From positions 62,001 to 126,000 of the forward strand of contig JAIXYN010000021.1 in NCBI GenBank assembly GCA_027490195.1: a stretch of DNA of 64,000 bases, written 5' to 3'. Under the pieces are notes generated by a model. That model ran no database searches. It was not told the origin of the DNA and saw nothing but the letters and a program-made list of their open reading frames with translations. Shown one piece after another: positions 4,402 through 62,529 of this stretch. The position numbers and the translations under genes were made by a program. Each line of letters starts with the position of its first letter. Position 1 is the stretch's first letter. This stretch comes from Verrucomicrobiaceae bacterium (GTDB lineage Bacteria > Verrucomicrobiota > Verrucomicrobiia > Verrucomicrobiales > Verrucomicrobiaceae).

Positions 4402-4499
4402 GCGAAAGGAACGATCATGAGGGGTGGAACAATTCAGTTCAAGGCCGGAGACGTTCATGATTGACCATCGTCTATGCTTTGAGGTATCCTGTGGAACCT

Positions 4500-5144
4500 A
4501 TGAAAACGCGCTTCCTTTCTTTGATTGTTCTGCTGCTGGCCGCCACCCATGCCCGTGCCGACTGGGTGCTGGTGCAGAAGACTGACGCGGAGGGCAAGGA
4601 GACCGTGGTGACCACGAAGATCAAGGGAGAGCAGGCAAGGGTGGACATGGGAGACAAAATGTCCGCCATACTGGGAGCTGAGGGCATGGTCATGATGATG
4701 CATGCGCAGAAAATGATGATGAAGATGGACCTGGCGACGCTGAAGGCGTCCTTGGAAAAGACGGGAAAGGGCCCGGGCGGCCAGGCGGCGGCCAAGCCCG
4801 TGGCGACGGGGCAGAAGGAGAAAGTCGGCGAGTGGAACGCGGAGATTTACACCTGGGAAGGGACTCTGGGCAAAGGCCGCTTCTGGGTGGCCAAGGATTT
4901 CCCGAAACATGCTGAGATCAGCGCCATCAGCGACAAGCTGGGCAAAGTGATGGGCGGCGCGGTGTCCGGCATTTCACCGCAGGCTTCCGATTTCGACGGC
5001 ATGGTGGTGAAATCCGAGATGACGATGATGGGCAAGAGCGTGACCACGCTGCTGGTCTCTGCGAAAGAGGAGACGCTGAATGCGAACGAGTTCGTGCCGC
5101 CTGCCGGCTACGAGGAAATGAAAATGCCCGGAGCGCCGAAATGA
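4500..5144 (+). CDS. DUF4412-like secreted protein
   Basis: A protein of 214 residues starting MKTRFLSLIVLLLAATHARA, a good Sec signal peptide with cleavage after ARA. The mature part is basic and methionine-rich (GMVMMMHAQKMMMKMD around 65-80) and ends with FVPPAGYEEMKMPG, a pattern seen in DUF4412 proteins, whose fold resembles outer-membrane lipoprotein carriers. The function of that family is not established. An in-frame ATG exists at 4461, but the start at 4500 gives the signal peptide directly. The gene is divergent from the permease and ends one base before the convergent ketosynthase-like gene. Confidence 0.72.
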   Translation: MKTRFLSLIVLLLAATHARADWVLVQKTDAEGKETVVTTKIKGEQARVDMGDKMSAILGAEGMVMMMHAQKMMMKMDLATLKASLEKTGKGPGGQAAAKPVATGQKEKVGEWNAEIYTWEGTLGKGRFWVAKDFPKHAEISAISDKLGKVMGGAVSGISPQASDFDGMVVKSEMTMMGKSVTTLLVSAKEETLNANEFVPPAGYEEMKMPGAPK

Positions 5145-5145
5145 G

Positions 5146-6171
5146 CTACGGCGTCAGCACACACGCATAAGCGGCAGTGTTGGAGCCGGGCATGGAGATG
5201 ACCACGGGCTGCTGAGTCTGCCGCACGGCCAGAGTTCCCAGCACGAGCTGCAGGGCGCCGCTGGCCCCCATGCTTTCGCCAAGGACGTACTTCGGACTGA
5301 GCACTGAGTCCCAAGGCCGCCCTGACCAGGCAGCAATCTCCGCGCGGTCGATTTTGTGGATGCCCGTGCTGTCATTGATGAGCGTGGCAGGACCCTGGAA
5401 CTTCGCCAGTGTTTGTGCCGCGAGATCTGGCAGTAGCTCGCAGCGTTCCTGCCAGGAGAGATAGGCCAGCGGACCGATCATTTCGCTGACCCGGGGACCG
5501 TCGCCGCAGGCGGAAAGTAGAAGTGCTCCGGCACCTTCTGAGGCGATGTGATTCGGGTGGTAATAGGTGAGCCCCTCGGCACTGAGCCAGTCGCATTCCT
5601 CGGCGGCGATGAGCAGGCAATCTTCCACGATGCCGCTGCCGATCCAGAACGCGGCGGTGTCGAGCGCCTCCATGATGGAGTTGGGGCTGCCCAGGATGGT
5701 GCTGACTGCGCCATCCACTCCGAGGAAGGAGGCAAGGTGCGAGGCAGGCGCGTTGAACACGGTTTCTGGAAAGATCATCGGACTGGCCTGCGCGGGATTT
5801 TCCAGCACCTCATGGAAGAAGCGGCCGGTGTAGTTCACGCACCCGTTCATCATGACGAACAGAATGCCCAGCCCAGGCGGAGGCGCTGCGGGGTCGTGCC
5901 CGGCATCTGCCAGTGCCTCCAATGCCGCAGCCACGGAGTAGCGGGTGATCGCACTGGAGCGGCGCAGGCGTGGATGACGTGCGATCTTTTCCGGCGGAGA
6001 GGCGGGCGCAAAGCGGGATTCACAGGGCCAGTTGCGTACATCGCCGGGGCGGGCGCAGGTTTTGGAGGGCAGGGGTATTCCAGCCAGCACGGCGTTATGG
6101 ATGGCGGCGGCGCTCCAGCCAGCGGAACTCACTGCGCCGACTCCACGGATGCAGATATTGCTCACGTTCAC
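5146..6171 (-). CDS. Ketosynthase-like protein lacking the catalytic triad (chain-length-factor-like)
   Basis: A 341-residue beta-ketoacyl synthase homologue: N-terminal NICIRGVGAVSSAGW and the C-terminal PKYVLGESMGASGALQLVLG core are recognisable. All three catalytic positions are lost. The nucleophile loop reads VDGAVSTILGSPNSIMEAL (about 152-169) with no cysteine, the HGTGT motif is replaced by NDSTGIHK, and the second GH becomes GE. It is also shorter than a normal KAS (about 410). This is the expected form of a KS-beta/chain-length-factor partner, as in type II PKS and aryl-polyene clusters. The start is GTG at 6171, overlapping the stop of the upstream ketosynthase (GTGA), with a perfect AGGAGG five bases upstream, so the two should be made in a coupled ratio. 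Confidence 0.82.
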   Translation of the reverse strand: MNVSNICIRGVGAVSSAGWSAAAIHNAVLAGIPLPSKTCARPGDVRNWPCESRFAPASPPEKIARHPRLRRSSAITRYSVAAALEALADAGHDPAAPPPGLGILFVMMNGCVNYTGRFFHEVLENPAQASPMIFPETVFNAPASHLASFLGVDGAVSTILGSPNSIMEALDTAAFWIGSGIVEDCLLIAAEECDWLSAEGLTYYHPNHIASEGAGALLLSACGDGPRVSEMIGPLAYLSWQERCELLPDLAAQTLAKFQGPATLINDSTGIHKIDRAEIAAWSGRPWDSVLSPKYVLGESMGASGALQLVLGTLAVRQTQQPVVISMPGSNTAAYACVLTP

Positions 6172-7451
6172 GCGAACCTCCTTTGCAGAACAAGGGTTGC
6201 GTTGGTGCCGCCGAAACCAAAGGAATTGGTCAGCGCATAATCAAGCGAGGCGCGCCGGAACTGGCGCACTAGATCAAAGTGAACGGCGGGATCGATCTCG
6301 CGCACGTTCAGGCTTGCGGGCAGCCACTGACCCTGTAGGGCCATGAGGCAGATCACCGCTTCGACGGCACCAGCACCGCCGAGCAGATGACCCATGGCGG
6401 ACTTGGTGGAGCTGACGGGAATCTTGGACACGGCATCACCCGCCCAAGCGGCGATGGCGGCGGCTTCGGCCACGTCATTGAATGGCGTGCCGGTGCCGTG
6501 AGAGTTGATGTAGCCGATCTGAGCGGGTGAAACACCGGCCTGGGTGCAGGCGGCGGTCATGGTGCGAATGGCGGCTTTGCCAGCGGGATCAGGCTGCGTG
6601 AGGTGATGCAGGTCGGTGGCGGTGGAATACCCGGCGATGTTTCCTAGGGCAGCGCTTTGGCGTACGTCCTCGGCTTCCAGCAGCATGACGGCGGCACCTT
6701 CACCGAGGGCAAGTCCGTCCCGCTGCGCATCAAAGGGCCGTGGAATGCCGCTGGGCGCAAGGGCGCGGAGGGTGTCAAACCCGGCAAACACGAGCCGCGC
6801 GATGGCATCGTAGCCACCTGCGAGCACGCGCTTGGCGCGGCCGGAGCGGATCATGTCCGCCGCCCAGCCAATGGCATTGGCCCCGGAGGCGCAGGCATTG
6901 GAAACGATGATGACTGGGCCGCGCCAGCCAAACTCGGCCGCGATGCTGCTCATCTGACGCTGTGGCTGATAATGTTCTGCGCGCGAAAGCTGTGTCGGAT
7001 CGCGGCCTGAATCATGACGTGCATGTTCGAAATAGGACTCGCCTAGGGGCATCGCCCCGGCGGAGGTGCCGATGACCATGGCGTCGATGCCATCCATGCT
7101 CTGCCGGCCCGATTGCGCGAGTGCTTCGCGGATGGCCATGAGCAGCATGCGGGTGCCACGGTCACAATAGGTCTGTTTGTGGGCAGGGATTCGGCGGAAG
7201 AGGCTCTCTGCGGGCAGATCCACCACACCGGCGGTTTTGGCAATGAATTCGCGGGTGTCGAAGAGTTCGACCGGCTTGAAAGCAGTACGGTCCGCCGCCA
7301 GCGCCACTTCATTCGCCTGCCAGCCCATGCCCAGAGGCGAGACAATCCCCGCTCCTGTGATGGCGATGCTCTGGCGTAAAGGTAATGGCACTAGGGAAGA
7401 CTGGATGAGATTCGTTGTGTGGAAGGTTGAACTGCTAACGCAAGTGTTCAT
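6168..7451 (-). CDS. 3-oxoacyl-ACP synthase (ketosynthase), FabF-like, in biosynthetic island
   Basis: A ketosynthase with an intact Cys-His-His triad: SNACASGANAIG (C187), NSHGTGTPFND (H318) and KSAMGHLLGGAGAVEAV (H355). It condenses malonyl-ACP with a growing acyl chain. The conserved start SIAITGAGIVSPLG begins only at residue 28. Two starts are possible: ATG at 7451, giving an unusual 27-residue leader, or GTG at 7391, giving a normal N-terminus and a 110-bp shared promoter with the ligase gene. Neither has a strong Shine-Dalgarno sequence. A separate housekeeping-like FabF is at 43678-44922, so this copy is probably pathway-specific. It is coupled to the inactive homologue downstream. 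Confidence 0.9.
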   Translation of the reverse strand: MNTCVSSSTFHTTNLIQSSLVPLPLRQSIAITGAGIVSPLGMGWQANEVALAADRTAFKPVELFDTREFIAKTAGVVDLPAESLFRRIPAHKQTYCDRGTRMLLMAIREALAQSGRQSMDGIDAMVIGTSAGAMPLGESYFEHARHDSGRDPTQLSRAEHYQPQRQMSSIAAEFGWRGPVIIVSNACASGANAIGWAADMIRSGRAKRVLAGGYDAIARLVFAGFDTLRALAPSGIPRPFDAQRDGLALGEGAAVMLLEAEDVRQSAALGNIAGYSTATDLHHLTQPDPAGKAAIRTMTAACTQAGVSPAQIGYINSHGTGTPFNDVAEAAAIAAWAGDAVSKIPVSSTKSAMGHLLGGAGAVEAVICLMALQGQWLPASLNVREIDPAVHFDLVRQFRRASLDYALTNSFGFGGTNATLVLQRRFA

Positions 7452-7501
7452 TCTACCGCACGGCGCGGCCTATGGTTTACGCTTCGCCGCAAGGACTGCA
7501 A

Positions 7502-8689
7502 ATGTTTGGTGAACGCTGGGATCGTATTGTGGCTGAGCGCGGTGCGCAGGCAGCTGTGTATCTTGCTGATGGACGTGCTACCACGTTCCGCCAGCTGGAT
7601 GCCGAGGCGCGTGCCATGAAGCCTGCCGGTGATCACGTGCTGGCTCAGGGGGATGTGCCACAGATACTGCTGCAGTTGCTGAGCGGATTTTTGCACGGCG
7701 TACCGGTACAGATGGTGGAAAAGGACCGTGCCCGTCGCGTGCCCACCCGCCCGCCGCCTGCGGGTACGGCTTTGATCAAGCAGGCTGTCGGTGGTTCGGG
7801 AGTGCGCCGTTGCCAGTTTTTCACGTTCGATCAAATCGCTGCCGATGTGGACCGGCTGCATGAGGCGCTGGATCTTGGGGCGCGCGGCATAGGGGTGGCG
7901 GCAATTTCCTGCGCGCATTCTTTCGGTCTCACGATGACGGTGTTGCAAACCTTGCTCCACGGCGTGCCCACCTGCTTTGCACCGCAGCCGTTTGCGCAGC
8001 CGCTGATGGAAGCGATGAAACACCACGAGCGGGTGTATCTGCCGGGTGTCCCGGCTTTGTGGAAGGCCTGGCTGATGGGGGATGTCCGTTTCGACAACGT
8101 CAGTCTGGCGATCTCTGCCGGGTCCCCCCTCACGCTCGATCTGGAACGCATGGCACTGGAGCACCACGGACTCAAAATTCACAATCTCTACGGGACGAGC
8201 GAATGCGGCGCGGTCTCCTGGGATGAAACGCTCGATTTGCGTGAGGATGCGAGCGACATCGGCACCCTCCTGCCCGGCGTGCTGGCTCAAACCGATGCCG
8301 AGGGCAGGTTGGTCGTGTCCAGCAGCTCGGTGGGCCTGGGGTATGACGAAGAGCTGCCGCAGGAGAACTATGTTTCCGGGGTCTTCACCACCAGCGATCT
8401 GGTCGCGCAGCAGGGAAGCCGCCTGCTGTTTCAGCACTGTGCTGGCGCTGGAATCAACGTGGCGGGCCGCAAGCTCAGCCCCGCAGAGATTGCTGAAAAA
8501 ATCATGCGGGCATCCAAGCTGGAAAAGGTGAAAATTTATGGCACCCGGAGTCGCGATCCCGAGCGCTGTCAGGACATCGTGGCGGAGATAGGCCTGCCGC
8601 AGGCGGAGATCGATCCCGCGTTCAAAATAACGGCATGTTCACTGCTCGCGCCTTGGGAAGTCCCGCGTAAATGGATTGGCAGACTATGA
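7502..8689 (+). CDS. AMP-dependent acyl/aryl ligase-like protein, atypical
   Basis: The protein has about 395 residues, short for the ANL superfamily (450-550). The start at 7502 is preferred because AAGGA sits at 7491-7495; an upstream ATG at 7472 lacks this. Recognisable ANL cores, numbered from 7502: NLYGTSECGAVS near 228-239 (A5), VFTTSDL near 294-300 (A7), and GAGINVAGRKLSPAEIAEKI (A8 hinge). The serine/glycine-rich P-loop (A3) is degenerate (GTALIKQAVGGSG), and the C-terminal catalytic-lysine motif reads PRKWIGRL, with arginine where lysine is usual. In aryl-polyene clusters an ANL ligase loads the aromatic starter; that role is inferred from context. The stop overlaps the methyltransferase start (ATGA). 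Confidence 0.8.
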   Translation: MFGERWDRIVAERGAQAAVYLADGRATTFRQLDAEARAMKPAGDHVLAQGDVPQILLQLLSGFLHGVPVQMVEKDRARRVPTRPPPAGTALIKQAVGGSGVRRCQFFTFDQIAADVDRLHEALDLGARGIGVAAISCAHSFGLTMTVLQTLLHGVPTCFAPQPFAQPLMEAMKHHERVYLPGVPALWKAWLMGDVRFDNVSLAISAGSPLTLDLERMALEHHGLKIHNLYGTSECGAVSWDETLDLREDASDIGTLLPGVLAQTDAEGRLVVSSSSVGLGYDEELPQENYVSGVFTTSDLVAQQGSRLLFQHCAGAGINVAGRKLSPAEIAEKIMRASKLEKVKIYGTRSRDPERCQDIVAEIGLPQAEIDPAFKITACSLLAPWEVPRKWIGRL

Positions 8690-9351
8690 ACACTCGCTTG
8701 CCTTCCAGCTCTCTGAGGCGCATCACCCGGCTGTGCACTAGGCGCCATGAGCACTTCTACTCGGTGGTGAAGCTGCGTTCCGATCCAGTTTATGCCGCTG
8801 TGACCAAGGAATTGCAGGACTCCCCGCTGCCCGTGCTCGACATCGGCTGTGGCATCGGCCTGCTGGCATTTTATCTGCGTGAGTCAGGCTTTGCACCAGA
8901 CATCGCCGGGTTTGACTACGATGCGGAAAAAATCACCTGTGCACAAAGCATGGCCTCGCCCAGCGGCTTCGAAGGGCTCAGCTTCACGACTGGGGACGCA
9001 CGTACAGGACTCCCGGAATGCAGCGGTCATGTGGTGATCCTGGACATCCTGCAGTTTTTCACACGGGAGCAGCAGGAGGCGCTGCTGAGAGCGGCGGCAT
9101 CTCGTGTGTCGCCGGGGGGAAAGCTGATCATTCGGACCTGCCTGCAGAACAACTCTCTGCGCTTTCGCATTACCGTGGCGGGAGACTGGCTGGCCAAGAT
9201 GACGTTTTGGATGAAGGACGCGCCGGTGTGCTACCCGGACCGCGCTCTGTTCGAGTCCGTGCTGAGCTCAGCTGGGCTGCGGGTACGGGTGCAGCCGCTA
9301 TGGGGAGGCACGCCGTTCAACAACCATCTCGTCGTCGCTGAACGCGAGTGA
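8686..9351 (+). CDS. SAM-dependent class I methyltransferase
   Basis: A protein of 221 residues with a clear motif I, PVLDIGCGIGLLAFYLRE, acidic residue at the end of strand 2 (GFDYDAEKI), HVVILDILQFF as motif IV and SPGGKLIIRTC as post-IV. The start at ATG 8686 overlaps the ligase stop in an ATGA arrangement, so it is probably translated by coupling; a GTG/ATG reading from 8671 is less likely. In aryl-polyene gene sets a methyltransferase of this size modifies the aromatic head group, which fits the neighbours but is inference. The 3' end overlaps the convergent deacetylase by 54 bp. Confidence 0.87.
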   Translation: MNTRLPSSSLRRITRLCTRRHEHFYSVVKLRSDPVYAAVTKELQDSPLPVLDIGCGIGLLAFYLRESGFAPDIAGFDYDAEKITCAQSMASPSGFEGLSFTTGDARTGLPECSGHVVILDILQFFTREQQEALLRAAASRVSPGGKLIIRTCLQNNSLRFRITVAGDWLAKMTFWMKDAPVCYPDRALFESVLSSAGLRVRVQPLWGGTPFNNHLVVAERE

Positions 9352-10122
9352 GGCCGGTGGTTCGCATTCAAAGCGGTTTGCCGTCAGAAGGGCGGCCACG
9401 GTCTGAGCTACTTCAACGGCCACAGGGGTGCCTTCGTGGATCAGCACGATCGCGCCCGGCTTCAGCCGCTGGGCGATGCGCCGCGTGATGGTGGGCACGT
9501 CTGTCAGCACGCCGTCAAATCCCCGCGCACTCCACAGCATCATCCGCAGACCCAGGGCCTGGGCGATCAGAGCGGTGAAGAGGTTGTGATGGCCCGCAGG
9601 AGGGCGGAAAAAACGCGGTGGATGATTGGGGCAGAGGGCGGCCAGCGTCTCCTGGCAGTCGGCGATCTCGCGCCATAACCGCGTTGGGTGCAGTATCCAA
9701 AAAGTGCCAGCAGGATGCGTCTGCGTGTGGTTGCCGATTTCGTGGCCGCGCGCGATGATTTCGCGCACCAGATGCGGATGCTGTGAGGCACGCTCACCGA
9801 CCAGAAAGAAGAGAGCTTTGATGTGATGACGGTCAAGAATATCGAGAATCGCCGGGGTGTGCTCGGGGTGCGGACCGTCATCGATGGTGAACAGCACCTG
9901 GTTGCAAGCCTGCGGCAGTTGTTTGATCATGCGACCGAACAGGGCACAGCGCGGCATCAGCGTACCGATCATCATGGTGGTCAGGACGGTGCAAAACAGC
10001 AGTGCAGCGGTCAGCTGCTGCCCGCTCCCTAGCAGCCAAAGCACCACTGGCACGGGTGCGAGGGCCAGGGCGAAGCGAAAGTACGCGCGGCGCAGGGCGC
10101 ATGCACGAATGCCCGCATTCAT
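9298..10122 (-). CDS. Polysaccharide deacetylase (NodB homology domain), membrane-anchored
   Basis: A 274-residue protein. Two hydrophobic segments (about 15-33 and 37-55) precede a NodB domain with the metal motifs TIDDGP (79-84), NHTQTHP (H132 and H136), RFFRPPAGHHN and a late IVLIHEG. The family removes acetyl groups from N- or O-acetyl sugars with a divalent metal. The first motif has the second aspartate of TFDDGP-type sites. It is the second gene of a two-gene unit: its ATG overlaps the stop of the acyltransferase (10119-10122). Deacetylases of this type occur in some pigment and lipid clusters; substrate here unknown. The 54-bp tail overlap with the methyltransferase is real by reading frame. 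Confidence 0.88.
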   Translation of the reverse strand: MNAGIRACALRRAYFRFALALAPVPVVLWLLGSGQQLTAALLFCTVLTTMMIGTLMPRCALFGRMIKQLPQACNQVLFTIDDGPHPEHTPAILDILDRHHIKALFFLVGERASQHPHLVREIIARGHEIGNHTQTHPAGTFWILHPTRLWREIADCQETLAALCPNHPPRFFRPPAGHHNLFTALIAQALGLRMMLWSARGFDGVLTDVPTITRRIAQRLKPGAIVLIHEGTPVAVEVAQTVAALLTANRFECEPPASLAFSDDEMVVERRASP

Positions 10123-11054
10123 GCGGGATCGCGGGTAACGAGCGGTTCAAAGACAAACCATTGGTCCCAGTGCTGCAAAAGAAAACCATGCAAGACGTGG
10201 AGCCAAGCTGCGCTGATCTCGGCGGCCTTGTGCTTACGCCCGCCCTCGAAGAAGGGTCTGCCGATCTCGATGCGGTAGGCGAGCCGGCCCCTCCGGCTGA
10301 GAAACACTGGGTAGCACGGCACGCCGGTCACCTCCGCGAGCACCAGCGGCCCGCGCGGGATTTTATAAGTCACGCCATCAATACTGGCCTGAGTAGGGGT
10401 CACCTCACCCAGAACACGGTCGCCCTGTACGCAGACGACTTCGCCTGCGAGAAGCAGGCGGCACAGCTCCATGCCGAGATGGCCGCCGGGTTCGTTGTAA
10501 TGAACGTGCAGATTTGGCTCGCGGCTCTCTTCGTCAGACAGCTCCTTCGTGCGCAGCTTTTTCAGCGAATCCGAGGCCTCTGGCATGCGGACGGTATGGA
10601 CGGGCCGGGTGAATTTGCGCGCGAAGAGACTGGCTCCGATGTCATAGTTGCCGGAATGCACGGTGAAGATCAGCGCGCCCCCTGGGTGTTTTTCCAGATG
10701 CTCGAGGGCACCATCGTCAATGATCTCCCAGTCGATCTTGCGTTGAAAATGCAGATACCAGAGCCGGTCGAGATAGGTCAGCGAAAACTGGAGGAAGACC
10801 TGAAATCCTGCCAGGCAGCTGGAGCCTTTGCCGGGAATGAGGGCACTGAGATTGGCACGGATGGCCTCACGCGGCTCTACCGCCAGGATATAAGCGACGG
10901 CGGTGATGGGATAGGCGAACAGCGTGAAGACCGGCGCGGGCACCCAGCGCATGAGAGACAAAAGCGCCTCCGTCCAGAATGCATCATGCAGACCCATGCG
11001 CGGCGGAGTGGGCGGCGCGTTCGGCTCGTGGGTTGCAGAATCAGCAGACGGCAT
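10119..11054 (-). CDS. LpxL/HtrB-like lysophospholipid-type acyltransferase
   Basis: A 311-residue protein of the LpxL/HtrB (lauroyl/myristoyl transferase) family. The catalytic HX4D motif is HSGNYD (H133-D138), followed by VCVQGDRV and GVPCYPVFL. An N-terminal hydrophobic region around 40-57 probably docks it to the inner membrane. In lipid A synthesis such enzymes transfer acyl chains from ACP; in aryl-polyene and flexirubin clusters relatives attach the polyene to a lipid or glycerol. The position in this island suggests the second role, but lipid A acylation is not excluded. It starts at ATG 11054, has no obvious Shine-Dalgarno, and is coupled to the deacetylase. Confidence 0.85.
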   Translation of the reverse strand: MPSADSATHEPNAPPTPPRMGLHDAFWTEALLSLMRWVPAPVFTLFAYPITAVAYILAVEPREAIRANLSALIPGKGSSCLAGFQVFLQFSLTYLDRLWYLHFQRKIDWEIIDDGALEHLEKHPGGALIFTVHSGNYDIGASLFARKFTRPVHTVRMPEASDSLKKLRTKELSDEESREPNLHVHYNEPGGHLGMELCRLLLAGEVVCVQGDRVLGEVTPTQASIDGVTYKIPRGPLVLAEVTGVPCYPVFLSRRGRLAYRIEIGRPFFEGGRKHKAAEISAAWLHVLHGFLLQHWDQWFVFEPLVTRDPA

Positions 11055-11143
11055 TATTTAAAGGCGTAGCATGGATGGAATGAGACGTTCTGTTTCGACT
11101 GTCACACTGCTTCCGACAACCGACTTTTTCACCACTTGCATGC

Positions 11144-12703
11144 ATGACCTCAACTAACACAGAGTACGATGTGGTCATCATGGGCGGAGCATTTTCCGGC
11201 GCATCGGCGGGGATGATGCTCAAACGCGAGCATCCGGAGATGCGCATTTTGATCGTGGAGCGCACGGGGCAGTTTGACCGCAAAGTGGGGGAAAGTACTT
11301 CCGAAGTGGCGGGTTGCTTCCTCACCCGCGTCCTGCATCAGGGGCATCATCTGAGTGCGCATCACTATCAAAAGCACGGTCTGCGCATGTGGTCTTGTAA
11401 GACTCCGAACGATGATGTGGGGGATCTCACCGAAATCGGGCCCCGCTACCAGTCACGGCTGCCCACATTCCAGCTTGATCGCGCCATCCTTGACGAACAC
11501 CTGCTCAAGGAGGCCTGTGATTTCGGCTGCGAGCTGCTGCGTCCGGCCACGATCAAAAACATCACGCTCTCGGAAGACGAGGCGGCGCACACGCTGGAAA
11601 TCATGCCGCAGGAAGGGCAGACGCGCACGGTGACCACGCGCTGGCTGATCGACGCCTCCGGCAAGGCTGCCGTGCTGTCGAAGAAACTCGGGCTGCACTC
11701 CTCCATGGAGAGCGAGCACCCCACCTCGTCCATCTGGTGCCGCTTCCGCAATGTGAACGGGCTCGACAGCTACAAGAGCCGCAAGATGCACCCGAAGCTC
11801 ATGGAAAAGGGGAGCGGACTCCGCACCACGGCCACGAATCATCTCATGGGGCACGGCTGGTGGTGCTGGATCATCCCGCTTTCCGATGGCAGCTACAGTG
11901 CCGGCGTCACCTGGGATCGGCGGTTTTTCACCCTGCCTGAGGGGCCGTCTCTCATCGCCCGGCTGCAGGCTCATTTGATGACGCATCCGATTGGCCGACT
12001 CATGTTTGAAAACGCCGTGCCGGATGCCGACGACACCTACTATTACAAAAACCTCGCGTATCGTTCTGAGCGCATCGCTGGCAACCGCTGGGTCATGGTC
12101 GGTGACGCGGCCGGGTTCATGGACCCCTTGTACAGCCATGGTCTCGACTACTGTGGCCACACGGTGTCTGCGGCGGTCGATATGGTGGAAAGGAACCTGG
12201 CAGGTGAAAACACCCAGAAGATCACCGACTACCTTAACATGGCCTACCCGCGCAGTTACCGCCTGTGGTTCAACGCGCTGTACAAGGACAAATACTCTTA
12301 CTTGGGCGACGCGGAGCTGATCAACGCGACGTTTCTGCTGGACCTCTCCGCGTATTTCCTTGGCCCGGTGCGGGGGGTGTATGATTCGCCGGAGACCGAA
12401 TGGAAACAGATGCCGTACGAAGGGAAAGCGGGTGCTTTTTTTGGCGGATTCATGGCTTTCTACAACCGCCGCTTCGTCCATCTCGGGCAGGAGCGCCGGC
12501 GCAAAGGCATCTACGGACGCGCTAACAACGGGCATGTCTGGATGCCGTTCATGAGCCTGTCGCCTGACCCCACCGCCGCACGCTTGCTGTGGGCGGGGAT
12601 CAAGGTCTGGATCAAGGCGGAGATCACCACCTGGCTGGCCCCGACTCCTGCGACCGAACCGGTGATGATGGCGGATAAAAAGCCGGAGCCTGCGGAGGCG
12701 TGA
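11144..12703 (+). CDS. Flavin-dependent halogenase (tryptophan-halogenase superfamily)
   Basis: A 519-residue FAD enzyme. Dinucleotide motif DVVIMGGAFSGASAG at 9-23; GES after the first helix (RKVGESTSE, 46-54); YQKHG with K77 near the position of the catalytic lysine of PrnA/RebH; WCWIIP at 240-245, which fits the halogenase WxWxIP signature; and VGDAAGFMDPLYSHGLD as the second FAD motif. Family members use FADH2, oxygen and halide to halogenate electron-rich aromatic or polyene acceptors, and need a separate flavin reductase, which is not present here. A related halogenase acts in xanthomonadin pigment clusters. This is divergent from the acyltransferase, with 89 bp between. An oxygenase with no halide use is the main alternative. 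Confidence 0.86.
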   Translation: MTSTNTEYDVVIMGGAFSGASAGMMLKREHPEMRILIVERTGQFDRKVGESTSEVAGCFLTRVLHQGHHLSAHHYQKHGLRMWSCKTPNDDVGDLTEIGPRYQSRLPTFQLDRAILDEHLLKEACDFGCELLRPATIKNITLSEDEAAHTLEIMPQEGQTRTVTTRWLIDASGKAAVLSKKLGLHSSMESEHPTSSIWCRFRNVNGLDSYKSRKMHPKLMEKGSGLRTTATNHLMGHGWWCWIIPLSDGSYSAGVTWDRRFFTLPEGPSLIARLQAHLMTHPIGRLMFENAVPDADDTYYYKNLAYRSERIAGNRWVMVGDAAGFMDPLYSHGLDYCGHTVSAAVDMVERNLAGENTQKITDYLNMAYPRSYRLWFNALYKDKYSYLGDAELINATFLLDLSAYFLGPVRGVYDSPETEWKQMPYEGKAGAFFGGFMAFYNRRFVHLGQERRRKGIYGRANNGHVWMPFMSLSPDPTAARLLWAGIKVWIKAEITTWLAPTPATEPVMMADKKPEPAEA

Positions 12704-12749: not shown

Positions 12750-14117
12750 TCAGTCCTCTGGCTCAACCGGGACGGTCTGGGCTCCAGGCGGCGTGGGCGT
12801 ATTACTGATCGACACTCCATTGGAGGTTTTGTCAGCACCGGGATCGAGGGCTATCTCGACGGCAGCCTCGTTCACCACATCGGTAAAAAGCTGCGCGAGC
12901 GCTTTGGCGTCATTGGAAAGCACTGCGCCTAGGTAGCGCTCCGCCTGGCTCTCGGTATTCAGGAAGCCGTCGCCCATGTTGAGGTTGATGTTGGAGTTGG
13001 GCGAGGGCTTGATGCCTTTCGCCTGCATGGCGAGCTGCATGGCTTCGACAAACTGTTTACCCGCTTCCGGTTGGGTCATCAAATCCTGCATCAAAGGCTT
13101 CAATCTGGCAGTCAGCGCTGGGTCCTGGGCCAGCTCGCGCAGACTTTTGCCAGGATGAGCCACGCGGTAGTCATCCACCAAGGAGCGAGCATTCCGCTGG
13201 CGGTCCGAATCACCCCCGAAAAGCAGTTTGAACATTTCCTCATCGCCGACCCCGGAGGCATTGGATTTGGGAGCTGTCTTTGACTCACTTCGTTTCACCA
13301 CCTGTGGCGGGCTTGCAGGCGGAGGCTTGCTCTCTGGCCGATGGAGAGCAAACGGCAGCGATACTGCTGCGAGGGTGCTGGTGATCAGAATGGCTTTGCT
13401 GGCAGTGGTCATGGTTAGCAGGGTTGTGGTAGCAGAGAGGGAGACAGCCGGTGTGATCGATGCCGAGGTGCCGATGCCGGCGAGGGACAGCTTTCCCAAC
13501 GAGGCCTGCACGGCGACGGGCATGGCATGCGCCGATTGGGAGGCGAAAAAGGCCGGGAGACTGACGCCTGCGATCAGGCCACGGGCCCCCAAGGCCTCGC
13601 GCAGGGCCTGAACGCCGCGCTCGATGGCCCGTGAGACCGTGCCTTGATTTCTGCCGAGGTGGCGCGCGACTTCCGCCTGAGTGCGGCCTTCGAGAAAGTA
13701 GAGCACGAGCACCTCTCGCAGGTCATTGGGAAGTTCATTGAACGCGTCATCGACATGCGGCTCGATGTCTGACCACGTGGCTTCGCGATCGGTGTGCCAC
13801 GTTTCGGCCATGGACTCCTCGAAGCGCCGCCGGGTGCTCTCCCGGCGCACGACATCACACGCCCGGTTCCAGGCCACGCGGTGCAGCCACGCCGCGACAG
13901 ATTGGGTGATGCCTCCTGCTTTCCGCGCTAGCTCCAGAAAGGTCTCCTGGGCCACATCCTGTGCAGCTGCCGCATCGCGAGTCACGCGCAGCGCCGTGGC
14001 ATGCACCATCGCCCCATGAGCCTGCACCAGCTCACGGAAAGCGTGGGCATCGCCGCTGGCGGCGTAGCGCTCTAGGTGCTGGAGATCGGACGGCATTGCT
14101 TTGAAGGAAAGTCGCAC
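12750..14117 (-). CDS. ECF sigma factor with membrane-spanning C-terminal extension
   Basis: A 455-residue protein. Residues about 10-185 are an ECF sigma-70 factor: region 2 (LRVTRDAAAAQDVAQETFLELARKAG, WLHRVAWNRACDVVRRE) and region 4 (LPNDLREVLVLYFLEGRTQAEVARHLG, QGTVSRAIERGV). A small-residue-rich segment and one likely membrane helix (KAILITSTLAAVSLPFAL, about 243-260) are followed by a 190-residue soluble tail of unknown fold. The tail would be outside the cytoplasm and could act as a built-in sensor or anti-sigma. The start may be ATG 14117 or MPSDLQ at 14096. Convergent with the halogenase gene (46-bp gap). Confidence 0.88.
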   Translation of the reverse strand: MRLSFKAMPSDLQHLERYAASGDAHAFRELVQAHGAMVHATALRVTRDAAAAQDVAQETFLELARKAGGITQSVAAWLHRVAWNRACDVVRRESTRRRFEESMAETWHTDREATWSDIEPHVDDAFNELPNDLREVLVLYFLEGRTQAEVARHLGRNQGTVSRAIERGVQALREALGARGLIAGVSLPAFFASQSAHAMPVAVQASLGKLSLAGIGTSASITPAVSLSATTTLLTMTTASKAILITSTLAAVSLPFALHRPESKPPPASPPQVVKRSESKTAPKSNASGVGDEEMFKLLFGGDSDRQRNARSLVDDYRVAHPGKSLRELAQDPALTARLKPLMQDLMTQPEAGKQFVEAMQLAMQAKGIKPSPNSNINLNMGDGFLNTESQAERYLGAVLSNDAKALAQLFTDVVNEAAVEIALDPGADKTSNGVSISNTPTPPGAQTVPVEPED

Positions 14118-43677: not shown

Positions 43678-44922
43678 TTAGAACTTCTTGATCAGCAGCG
43701 CGGCATTGTGGCCGCCGAAGCCGAAAGAGTTGCTCAGGACGGCGTCGATTTTGGCCGGACGTGCGGTGTTTGGCACAACGTCCACGTCCACCTCGGGATC
43801 GAGGTTTTCGACGTTGATCGTGGGGGGAGCCACCTGGTCCCGGATCGCGCAGATGGAGGCGATGAGCTCCACGCCACCGGCAGCGCCGAGCAGGTGACCG
43901 GTCATCGACTTGGTGCCGGAGACGAGCAGGCCCTTGGTGGCGTAGTCACCAAAGACGCGCTTGATGGCGCGAAGTTCGCACAAATCACCCATGGGGGTCG
44001 AGGTGGCGTGAGCGTTGATGTATTGAATGTCGGTCACGTTCAGCTTGGCATGGCGCAGGGCCATCTCCATGCACTTGGCTGCACCCAGACCTTCGGGATG
44101 CGGGGAGGTGAGGTGGTAGGCATCGGCCGTGGCTCCATAACCGACCAGTTCGGCAAAAATCGGGGCACCGCGCTTTTTGGCGTGCTCAAGCTCTTCGATG
44201 ACGACGACGCCAGCGCCTTCGCCCATGACGAAGCCGTCGCGGGCCTTGTCCCAGGGGCGGGATGCCCGCTCAGGGTCGTCGTTGCGCATGCTCAGAGCCT
44301 TCATGTTAGCGAAACCAGCGAGGCCGCAGGGGCGGATGGAGGCTTCAGCGCCGCCGCAGATCATCACGTCAGCATCGCCAAACTTAATGTTGCGCCAGGC
44401 TTCGCCGATGTTGTTGTTGGAAGTCGCGCAGGCCGTGACGATGGCCATGTTTGGTCCCATGAAGCCGTATTCCGCCGCGATCATGCCGCTGGCGATGTTT
44501 GAGATCATCATGGGGATGATGAAGGGGGAGACGCGTGCAGGGGATTTCGTCAGCAGCACCTCATACTGGGTTTCCAGGGTGCCAAGACCGCCGATGCCGC
44601 TGCCGACCATGACGCCAACGCGGTGGGGGTCGAGGCTGTCTGGGTTCAAGCCAGCGTCTTTGGCCGCCATTTTCGAGGCCGCCATGGCAAACTGGAAGTA
44701 GCGGTCGGCGCGGCGTGCGTCCTTGTGATTGTTGAAATGGACGGACGGATCAAAGTCCACCACCTCCCCGGCGATCTTGCAGTCGTACTTCTCAGTGTCC
44801 ATGGACTGGATGCGACGGATGCCGCTTTTGCCTGCCTGGATGTTCTTCCAAAAGTCATCTTTATTGTTGCCAACGGGGGAGACGACTCCCATGCCGGTGA
44901 TGACTACGCGACGCTCGCTCAT
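43678..44922 (-). CDS. fabF: 3-oxoacyl-ACP synthase II
   Basis: A 414-residue enzyme, normal length, starting MSERRVVITGMGVVSPVGNN. The triad is intact: C165 in VTACATSNNNIGEAW, H305 in NAHATSTPMGD, H343 in KSMTGHLLGAAGG. It elongates acyl-ACP in fatty-acid synthesis. Note ACATSNN instead of the common ACATGAH after the nucleophile. An acpP gene, often directly upstream of fabF, is absent; upstream is a divergent LolA-like gene. A strong terminator follows. Housekeeping function is most likely; a pathway role is possible but less so. Confidence 0.94.
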   Translation of the reverse strand: MSERRVVITGMGVVSPVGNNKDDFWKNIQAGKSGIRRIQSMDTEKYDCKIAGEVVDFDPSVHFNNHKDARRADRYFQFAMAASKMAAKDAGLNPDSLDPHRVGVMVGSGIGGLGTLETQYEVLLTKSPARVSPFIIPMMISNIASGMIAAEYGFMGPNMAIVTACATSNNNIGEAWRNIKFGDADVMICGGAEASIRPCGLAGFANMKALSMRNDDPERASRPWDKARDGFVMGEGAGVVVIEELEHAKKRGAPIFAELVGYGATADAYHLTSPHPEGLGAAKCMEMALRHAKLNVTDIQYINAHATSTPMGDLCELRAIKRVFGDYATKGLLVSGTKSMTGHLLGAAGGVELIASICAIRDQVAPPTINVENLDPEVDVDVVPNTARPAKIDAVLSNSFGFGGHNAALLIKKF

Positions 44923-60531: not shown

Positions 60532-62529
60532 ATGTCTCACAAAGCTCCAACTCTCTTTGACTGGTCCATCGCCGGTCCAGCTGTGGGCGACGCATTCAAA
60601 AAGCTCGACCCGCGCCTTATGGTGAAGAATCCGGTCATGTTCGTGACCCTGATCGGTGCGGTGCTGACCACCGTCGGCATCTTCACTGCCAAGACCGATC
60701 ATGGCTTTATCATCCAGCTCGCCATCTGGCTCTGGTTCACCGTCCTCTTTGCCAACTTCGCTGAAGCCGTCGCTGAAGGCCGTGGCAAGGCTCAGGCTGC
60801 GAGCCTCCGTGCCGCACGCAAAGACACCATGGCCCGTCGCTTGAAAAATGGCGTAGAGACCAGCGTCCCAGCCCCCGCACTTGAAAAAGGTGATCTCGTC
60901 GTCTGTGAAACGGGTGATGTGATCCCTGCCGATGGCGAAGTTATCGAAGGCATTGCCAGCGTCGATGAAGCCGCCATCACCGGCGAATCCGCACCGGTCA
61001 TCCGCGAAAGCGGTGGTGACCGCAGCGCCGTCACTGGTGGCACACGTGTCATCAGCGACCGCATCGTCATCCGCATTACCTCGGAAAAAGGCAACACCTT
61101 CATCGATCGCATGATTGCGATGGTGGAAGGCGCGAAACGTCAGAAGACACCGAATGAAATCGCGCTCACCATCCTGCTCTCCGCTTTGACGTTGATATTC
61201 CTGCTAGTGGTCGTCACGCTGAAACCCTTTGGTATTTATTCCGCCACCAATTTCTCCACGCCGGTGCTCATCGCGCTGCTTGTGTGCCGGATTCCCACCA
61301 CCATCGGCGGCCTGCTCAGTGCCATTGGCATCAGCGGCATTGACCGTCTCATTCGCCGCAACGTCATGGCCACCAGTGGTCGCGCTGTTGAGGCTGCGGG
61401 AGACATCGATGTGCTCCTGCTCGACAAAACCGGCACCATCACCATTGGCAATCGCATGGCCTCTGATTTTCGTCCCGCGCCTGGCATTTCAGAGCAGGAA
61501 CTTGCTGATGCCGCACAGCTTGCCTCCCTGGCCGATGAAACGCCCGAAGGCCGCAGCATCGTCGTGCTCGCCAAAGAGAAGTTCAATATTCGTGGGCGCG
61601 AACTTGCCGAACCTCACGCCGCTTTCATTCCCTTCACGGCGCAGACACGCATGAGTGGCGTTGATCTCGATGGCCGCAGCATTCGCAAAGGCGCTGCAGA
61701 TTCGATCAAATCCCACATCGAAAAGCTTGGTGGTGTTTATCCGCCGGAAGTCCTCAAGGTTGTGGAAGCCGCTTCTCGCGCCGGACGCACTCCACTCGTC
61801 GTTTGCGAGGGGAGCAAGGTGCTCGGTGTTGTCGAACTCAAGGACGTCGTCAAAGGCGGCATCAAGGAGCGCTTTGCCCAGCTGCGCAAAATGGGCATTC
61901 GAACCGTCATGATCACGGGCGATAACCCCATGACCGCAGCAGCCATCGCCGCCGAGGCCGGTGTCGATGACTTCATGGCGCAGGCCACGCCGGAGGATAA
62001 GCTCAAGCGCATTCGCGCGGAGCAGGCCGCCGGACATCTCGTCGCCATGACTGGTGACGGCACCAATGATGCGCCAGCTCTTGCCCAGGCTGATGTCGGT
62101 GTCGCCATGAACACCGGTACGCAGGCCGCTCGTGAGGCCGGAAACATGGTCGATCTCGACAGCAATCCGACCAAGCTCATTGAGATCGTGGAGATCGGCA
62201 AGCAGCTCCTCATGACACGTGGCTCGCTGACAACCTTCAGCATCGCCAAATACTTCGCCATCATCCCCGCGATGCTCATGGTCACCTTCCCGGCGATCAG
62301 CCCGCTCAACATCATGGGCCTGGTTTCACCGCAGAGCGCCATCATCTTCAATGCGCTCATCATCGTCGCCTTGATCCCGCTTGCGCTGAAAGGCGTCCAG
62401 TATCGTGCGGTTGGCGCGGTCGCGGTGCTCCAGCGCAATCTTCTCATCTACGGTCTCGGCGGCATCATTGTGCCTTTCATCGGCATCAAGGCCATCGACC
62501 TCATCATCACCACCCTTCACCTCGCCTAA
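60532..62529 (+). CDS. kdpB: K+-transporting P-type ATPase subunit B
   Basis: A 665-residue P-type ATPase, start [15 protein letters not shown] at 60532 (the frame is open upstream into kdpA but without homology). Phosphorylation site D298 in [17 protein letters not shown] loop in [87 protein letters not shown] in helix 4 (VCRIP here, VCLIP in E. coli). The serine of TGES, phosphorylated in E. coli as an inhibitory mark at high K+, is kept. Fully normal length. Confidence 0.97.

Follow-up and report, generated by a model that had tools for sequence, protein, structure and literature searches.

A seven-gene ketosynthase and halogenase block of a Verrucomicrobiaceae bacterium as a probable module of a dispersed polyene lipid pathway

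The arcuflavin genes of Azoarcus sp. BH72 (arcA-X) are divided between two unlinked loci, and both loci are required for the pigment (PMC3949708). A halogenase belongs to the Xanthomonas cluster (PMC3691225), and arylpolyene clusters in Verrucomicrobiota are already known from antiSMASH (PMC9865893). Here we analyzed a block of seven genes in a stretch of 64,000 nucleotides (the window; positions 62,001 to 126,000 of contig JAIXYN010000021.1, called C43 below) from the draft genome of a Verrucomicrobiaceae bacterium (GCA_027490195.1; 6.98 Mb, 101 contigs, 95.4% complete). The block encodes a ketosynthase (KS), a partner resembling a chain-length factor (KS-beta), an ANL ligase, a methyltransferase (MT), a NodB-type polysaccharide deacetylase, an LpxL-like acyltransferase (LPLAT) and a flavin-dependent halogenase-family protein (FDH). 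We consider it probable that these genes form a single module of a type II polyketide pathway of aryl-polyene-lipid type that is dispersed over the genome, in a verrucomicrobial variant. The seven-gene roster that an earlier note had read from the letters at 5146-12703 was borne out: the open reading frames (ORFs) lie where it placed them, Pfam supports six of the seven, and a fold model supports the exception, KS-beta. Three short divergent units had been described there; we counted four, namely KS and KS-beta on the minus strand, ligase and MT on the plus strand, LPLAT and NodB on the minus strand, and FDH on the plus strand.

The window KS retains the whole Cys-His-His triad. In the alignment of the KS-beta family, the Cys and the first His are gone from all 23 sequences and the second His from 21 of them, which confirms the triad-less partner claimed earlier. 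KS-beta had no Pfam match, its sequence matches to FabF were weak, and a search against plasmids gave no match. Its predicted model (mean predicted local distance difference test score, pLDDT, 87.9) showed a ketosynthase/chain-length factor (CLF) fold, with the ishigamide CLF among the best fold matches. The block thus contains a KS with a triad-less chain-length-factor partner, which is a trait of aryl-polyene systems, the likeness of this partner to ApeC being weak. We built a KS tree of 24 sequences, 16 of them verrucomicrobial, which did not include the KS of the Xanthomonas and Azoarcus clusters. The results showed that the 16 verrucomicrobial sequences form one side of a branch (support 95/90), separate from ApeO and also from FabF, FabB and ApeR, which branch at 99/98. 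This tree rules out the block KS as a derivative of housekeeping FabF. The KS of an Azoarcus KH32C plasmid was also considered and set aside, its gene surroundings differing from those of the block.

Counts of gene neighborhoods refer to the best 80 of 298 confirmed named loci, many of which end at contig ends. The closest named KS-beta among these 80 came from a Prosthecobacter sp. metagenome-assembled genome (MAG) and was 92% identical. More than 1.3 kb of upstream sequence is available for 71 of these loci; in 70 of them KS immediately precedes KS-beta, and the remaining one has a KS match split into two pieces. Both proteins are encoded by a single ORF in 16 of the 80 loci, and the window's genus includes three genomes with the fusion as well. 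One carrier of the fused form is the cultured Brevifollis gellanilyticus NBRC 108608 (L154). The adjacency of KS and KS-beta is not due to chance, and the fusions offer a one-chain system for studying how an inactive partner sets chain length.

The partners that such a pair would need were found elsewhere in the genome. Genome-wide matches to acyl carrier protein (ACP; PF00550), FabA/Z (PF07977) and MMPL (PF03176) all lie outside the window, and no window ORF of at least 60 amino acids (aa) matched a pathway-type ketoreductase (KR) or ApeQ at E 1e-3, in agreement with the earlier statement that ACP, KR, dehydratase (DH) and exporter are missing here. A pathway-type ACP is encoded at C3:75908-76162 (57% over 75 aa to its counterpart in the genome G217) next to a pathway-type KR (60% over 212 aa to the KR of G217); in G217, KR and ACP come straight after KS-beta. 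Their neighbors on C3 encode an LPG_synthase_TM protein and a patatin. An ApeD-like acyltransferase (AT) and a FabA/Z-type DH are arranged head to head 53 kb to the right of the window (C43:178603-179867). These results indicate that the pathway is split, which had been one of the two options left by the earlier note, and that the ACP, KR and DH partners of an aryl-polyene pathway are present elsewhere in the genome, the KR being shortened as assembled. Since the partners exist and the KS branches apart from FabF, the outcome which that note had named as speaking against its reading (no partners anywhere and a KS placed with housekeeping FabF) did not occur. In addition, C24:141117-142370 encodes a short flavoprotein with 62% identity to a flavoprotein whose gene lies between ACP genes in the genome G066.

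The full seven-gene block was detected in nine related MAG loci (L125-L129, L131, L132, L135, L139), while L134 holds FDH and LPLAT only in part and L133 is interrupted by a contig end. All seven window ORFs are intact, with 58-95% identity in related loci. The flanks are conserved as well in most block-bearing loci, so conservation there reflects relatedness. L139 has an intact block with NAGPA and aroC on its other side, and in L135 extra genes lie between NodB and MT. The recurrence of the block in other contigs rules out an assembly chimera. Three genus relatives and one family relative carry DH, AT, a glycosyltransferase (GT) and MT as one module and FDH with LPLAT as another, and in the genus relatives the homologue of the window MT belongs to the former. 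Near-complete one-locus versions (L051, L053, L189, L197) unite most parts, and MMPL/LolA export genes sit within the L051 cluster. KR (>45% identical) was found in 26 of the 80 named loci, and ACP likewise in 26. E. coli ApeJ is matched over its C-terminal half by the window LPLAT (22%, E 8e-11) and over its N-terminal half by the GT of genus relatives (40%); AT and LPLAT are both encoded in the window's own genome.

For FDH, the best solved relatives in a profile search were the FADH2 halogenases CmlS, PltA and CtcP, and the fold search was led by PltM, FasV and CtcP, with a model of moderate confidence (pLDDT 74.8). Lys77, Trp240, Trp242 and Ile244 are invariant in all 13 sequences, and Pro245 is kept in at least 90%. 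We take Lys77 to be the catalytic Lys and the other positions to be the WxWxIP motif, and with these FDH carries both sequence features of a halogenase. Judged from family, fold and motifs, the product is probably halogenated. KS-beta (E<1e-30) was found in 15 of 288 genomes of the phylum, and FDH (E<=1e-60) in all 15 versus 8 of the 273 others; both are missing from 20 listed order-mates of one other genus. Two relatives contain several halogenase-like flavoproteins in a row, distant from the KS pair (L084:8643-12933, L090:9354-14998). A Janthinobacterium flavoprotein was rejected as a counterpart, its gene surroundings differing from those of the block.

A number of observations weigh against an aryl-polyene-lipid module, and we give them together with the other explanations that they touch. 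The co-occurrence of KS-beta and FDH is confounded by relatedness among the genomes. An aryl-polyene KS would be expected in the ApeO clade, and in the 24-row tree the block KS lies outside it. The match between KS-beta and ApeC profiles was weak (hhalign probability 49%), and the ApeC-type partner is half-size, unlike the full-length KS-beta (PMC8358021). An alignment of ten ligases showed that those of the block clade (window, L125, L132, L139) carry VGGSGVRR in place of SGSTGQPK of ApeH and end short of a C-terminal lysine. We take these two sites to be the P-loop and the A10 lysine tail. The tail lysine is also missing in L037, L041 and L045 and is kept in L048 and L189, and the window ligase has an AMP-binding fold despite both changes. 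UbiC was absent from all 16 genomes searched, with a positive E. coli control, and Lyase_aromatic was absent from the window's own genome, with five positive controls; the chorismatase search (PF21168) was uninformative, its control being silent.

The degenerate ligases (four of the four aligned), the missing UbiC and Lyase_aromatic and the placement of the KS would all suit a glycolipid with a polyene or unsaturated acyl chain that lacks an aryl head and is built on an acetyl or fatty starter, with the ligase in another role or none. We regard this explanation as rather unlikely, because the remaining roster fits arcuflavin and the ANL ligase remains adjacent to KS throughout the order, while the chorismatase search had no working control and other aromatic-acid sources were not searched. 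The aryl-polyene-like pathway proposed in the earlier note holds for the roster, which is that of arcuflavin and xanthomonadin (PMC3949708), and for the partners found in the genome, and is weakened where the KS clade and the ligase are concerned. Beside the KS pair of ten loci (at least 50% identity, queries counted) we observed a HydE-like radical S-adenosylmethionine (SAM) gene, a possible source of an unusual starter in some relatives. It was not found in the window or in the other examined stretches of this genome, the whole genome not having been searched for it.

Other points against the aryl-polyene-lipid module concern the strain itself. The KR on C3 lacks about its first 30 residues as assembled and abuts an insertion-element transposase gene at the contig end (L074:10199-12114, equal to C3:76198-78113 of this genome), whereas intact KR copies are present in relatives. 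No GT ortholog was found in the window's own genome (best 32%), versus six of six family relatives (the query's genome included). Of the partners that the earlier note had proposed to look for, ACP, KR and DH were found as pathway-type genes, but the MMPL candidate on C40 is weak, with its best score to HpnN well below the cut-off. The KR, the GT and the ligase changes could mean that this strain has a decaying or broken pathway, whose genes persist while no product is made. We consider this improbable, as the seven window ORFs are intact and similar to those of related loci, the ligase changes are common to the whole block clade, and the assembly is a draft (95% complete, 101 contigs), so the KR break may be an assembly effect as well as a true insertion. 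The host strain may or may not still make a polyene product.

Since each of 15 genomes has just one LPLAT homologue, this acyltransferase may be the lipid A enzyme. That it merely stands by chance beside a FabF paralogue is very improbable even though FabF proteins are the best solved relatives of the window KS by sequence, since the housekeeping FabF of the same genome (window 43678-44922) clusters with E. coli FabF apart from the block KS, the KS/KS-beta pairing and fusions are conserved, and the block is intact in L139 despite its moved flanks.

In a dispersed aryl-polyene-lipid pathway with the block as one module, KS and KS-beta would condense malonyl units onto a starter carried by the pathway ACP encoded on C3, and KR and the FabA/Z-type DH would leave one double bond in each cycle, giving a conjugated polyene that MT and FDH may decorate. 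The ApeD-like AT and LPLAT would join the polyene to a glycerolipid or glycolipid anchor, NodB would de-N-acetylate the anchor, and a transporter would carry the finished lipid outward. All of these catalytic steps, like the polyene, the aryl starter, the halogen and the anchor, are predicted from gene families. We also suggest, tentatively, that Verrucomicrobiota may have a polyene type II polyketide synthase lineage of their own, with a KS and a full-length triad-less partner that are often fused, and with a starter step that would need neither 4-hydroxybenzoate nor the usual ligase chemistry (the HydE-like radical SAM enzyme may feed it in some relatives), leading to a halogenated, NodB-processed polyene glycolipid. 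A scattered pathway is easily missed by single-cluster methods, so the number of polyene lipids made by these bacteria may exceed what is listed.

Coordinates of the block genes in the window and of HydE-like radical SAM genes near the KS pair in relatives
Feature	Position	Strand	Size and basis
KS-beta (chain-length-factor-like partner), triad lost	5146..6171	-	341 aa; ORF, predicted model, alignment
KS, Cys-His-His triad intact, 4-base overlap with KS-beta	6168..7451	-	Pfam PF00109, PF02801
ANL (AMP-binding) ligase, degenerate P-loop, without A10 lysine tail	7472..8689	+	405 aa; Pfam AMP-binding
SAM methyltransferase (MT)	8671..9351	+	Pfam methyltransferase
NodB-type polysaccharide deacetylase	9298..10122	-	Pfam Polysacc_deac_1
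LpxL-like acyltransferase (LPLAT)	10119..11054	-	Pfam Lip_A_acyltrans
Flavin-dependent halogenase-family protein (FDH)	11144..12703	+	519 aa; Pfam Trp_halogenase
HydE-like radical SAM gene	L053:11829-12845
HydE-like radical SAM gene	L051:17863-18882
HydE-like radical SAM gene	L174:5233-6294
HydE-like radical SAM gene	L199:6895-7974

The window ORFs 7448-8437, 11041-11325 and 4455-4910, all on the minus strand, had no Pfam match and were not counted as genes. A sigma-70 type gene (window 12750-14117, 455 aa) adjoins FDH and had no match next to the block in any related locus that was compared. Elsewhere in this genome, a large ketosynthase ORF (2936 aa; C87:13450-17205, L001) probably encodes a type I polyketide synthase.

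Compared with described systems, FDH, a putative halogenase, has its nearest solved relatives by profile and fold in the FADH2-dependent halogenases CmlS, PltA, CtcP and PltM, and differs from them in a long C-terminal part. The KS-beta model matches the CLF of ishigamide, a product of a highly reducing type II polyketide synthase (6kxd_B; template modelling scores 0.80/0.76), at 18% identity, a resemblance of fold alone that is common to other ketosynthases. The apeA-R genes of E. coli CFT073 share with the relatives or with this genome homologues of ApeD, ApeJ (split into GT and LPLAT), ApeQ, ACP and the ANL-type ligase. In contrast to the block, they form one cluster with an ApeC of 240 aa and a full ligase tail, without NodB and without a halogenase, and ApeO and the block KS fall in different clades. 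An ape-like cluster is present on the megaplasmid of Cupriavidus metallidurans CH34 (L205:251-15347); its flavoprotein is 32% identical to the short verrucomicrobial flavoprotein, and PLSDB shows no genes at that stretch. The arcuflavin and xanthomonadin systems differ from the block in that its ligase is degenerate, the chorismatase comparison being uninformative, and KS-beta is longer than the half-size partner of the aryl-polyene type (PMC8358021); the likeness to these systems is one of gene roster. This roster comprises KS with a CLF-like partner, halogenase, methyltransferase, polysaccharide deacetylase, acyltransferases, GT, AMP ligase, ACP, DH and KR (PMC3949708). As in the genome studied here, the arcuflavin gene set, with NodB-type and halogenase genes included, is dispersed over unlinked loci (PMC3949708).

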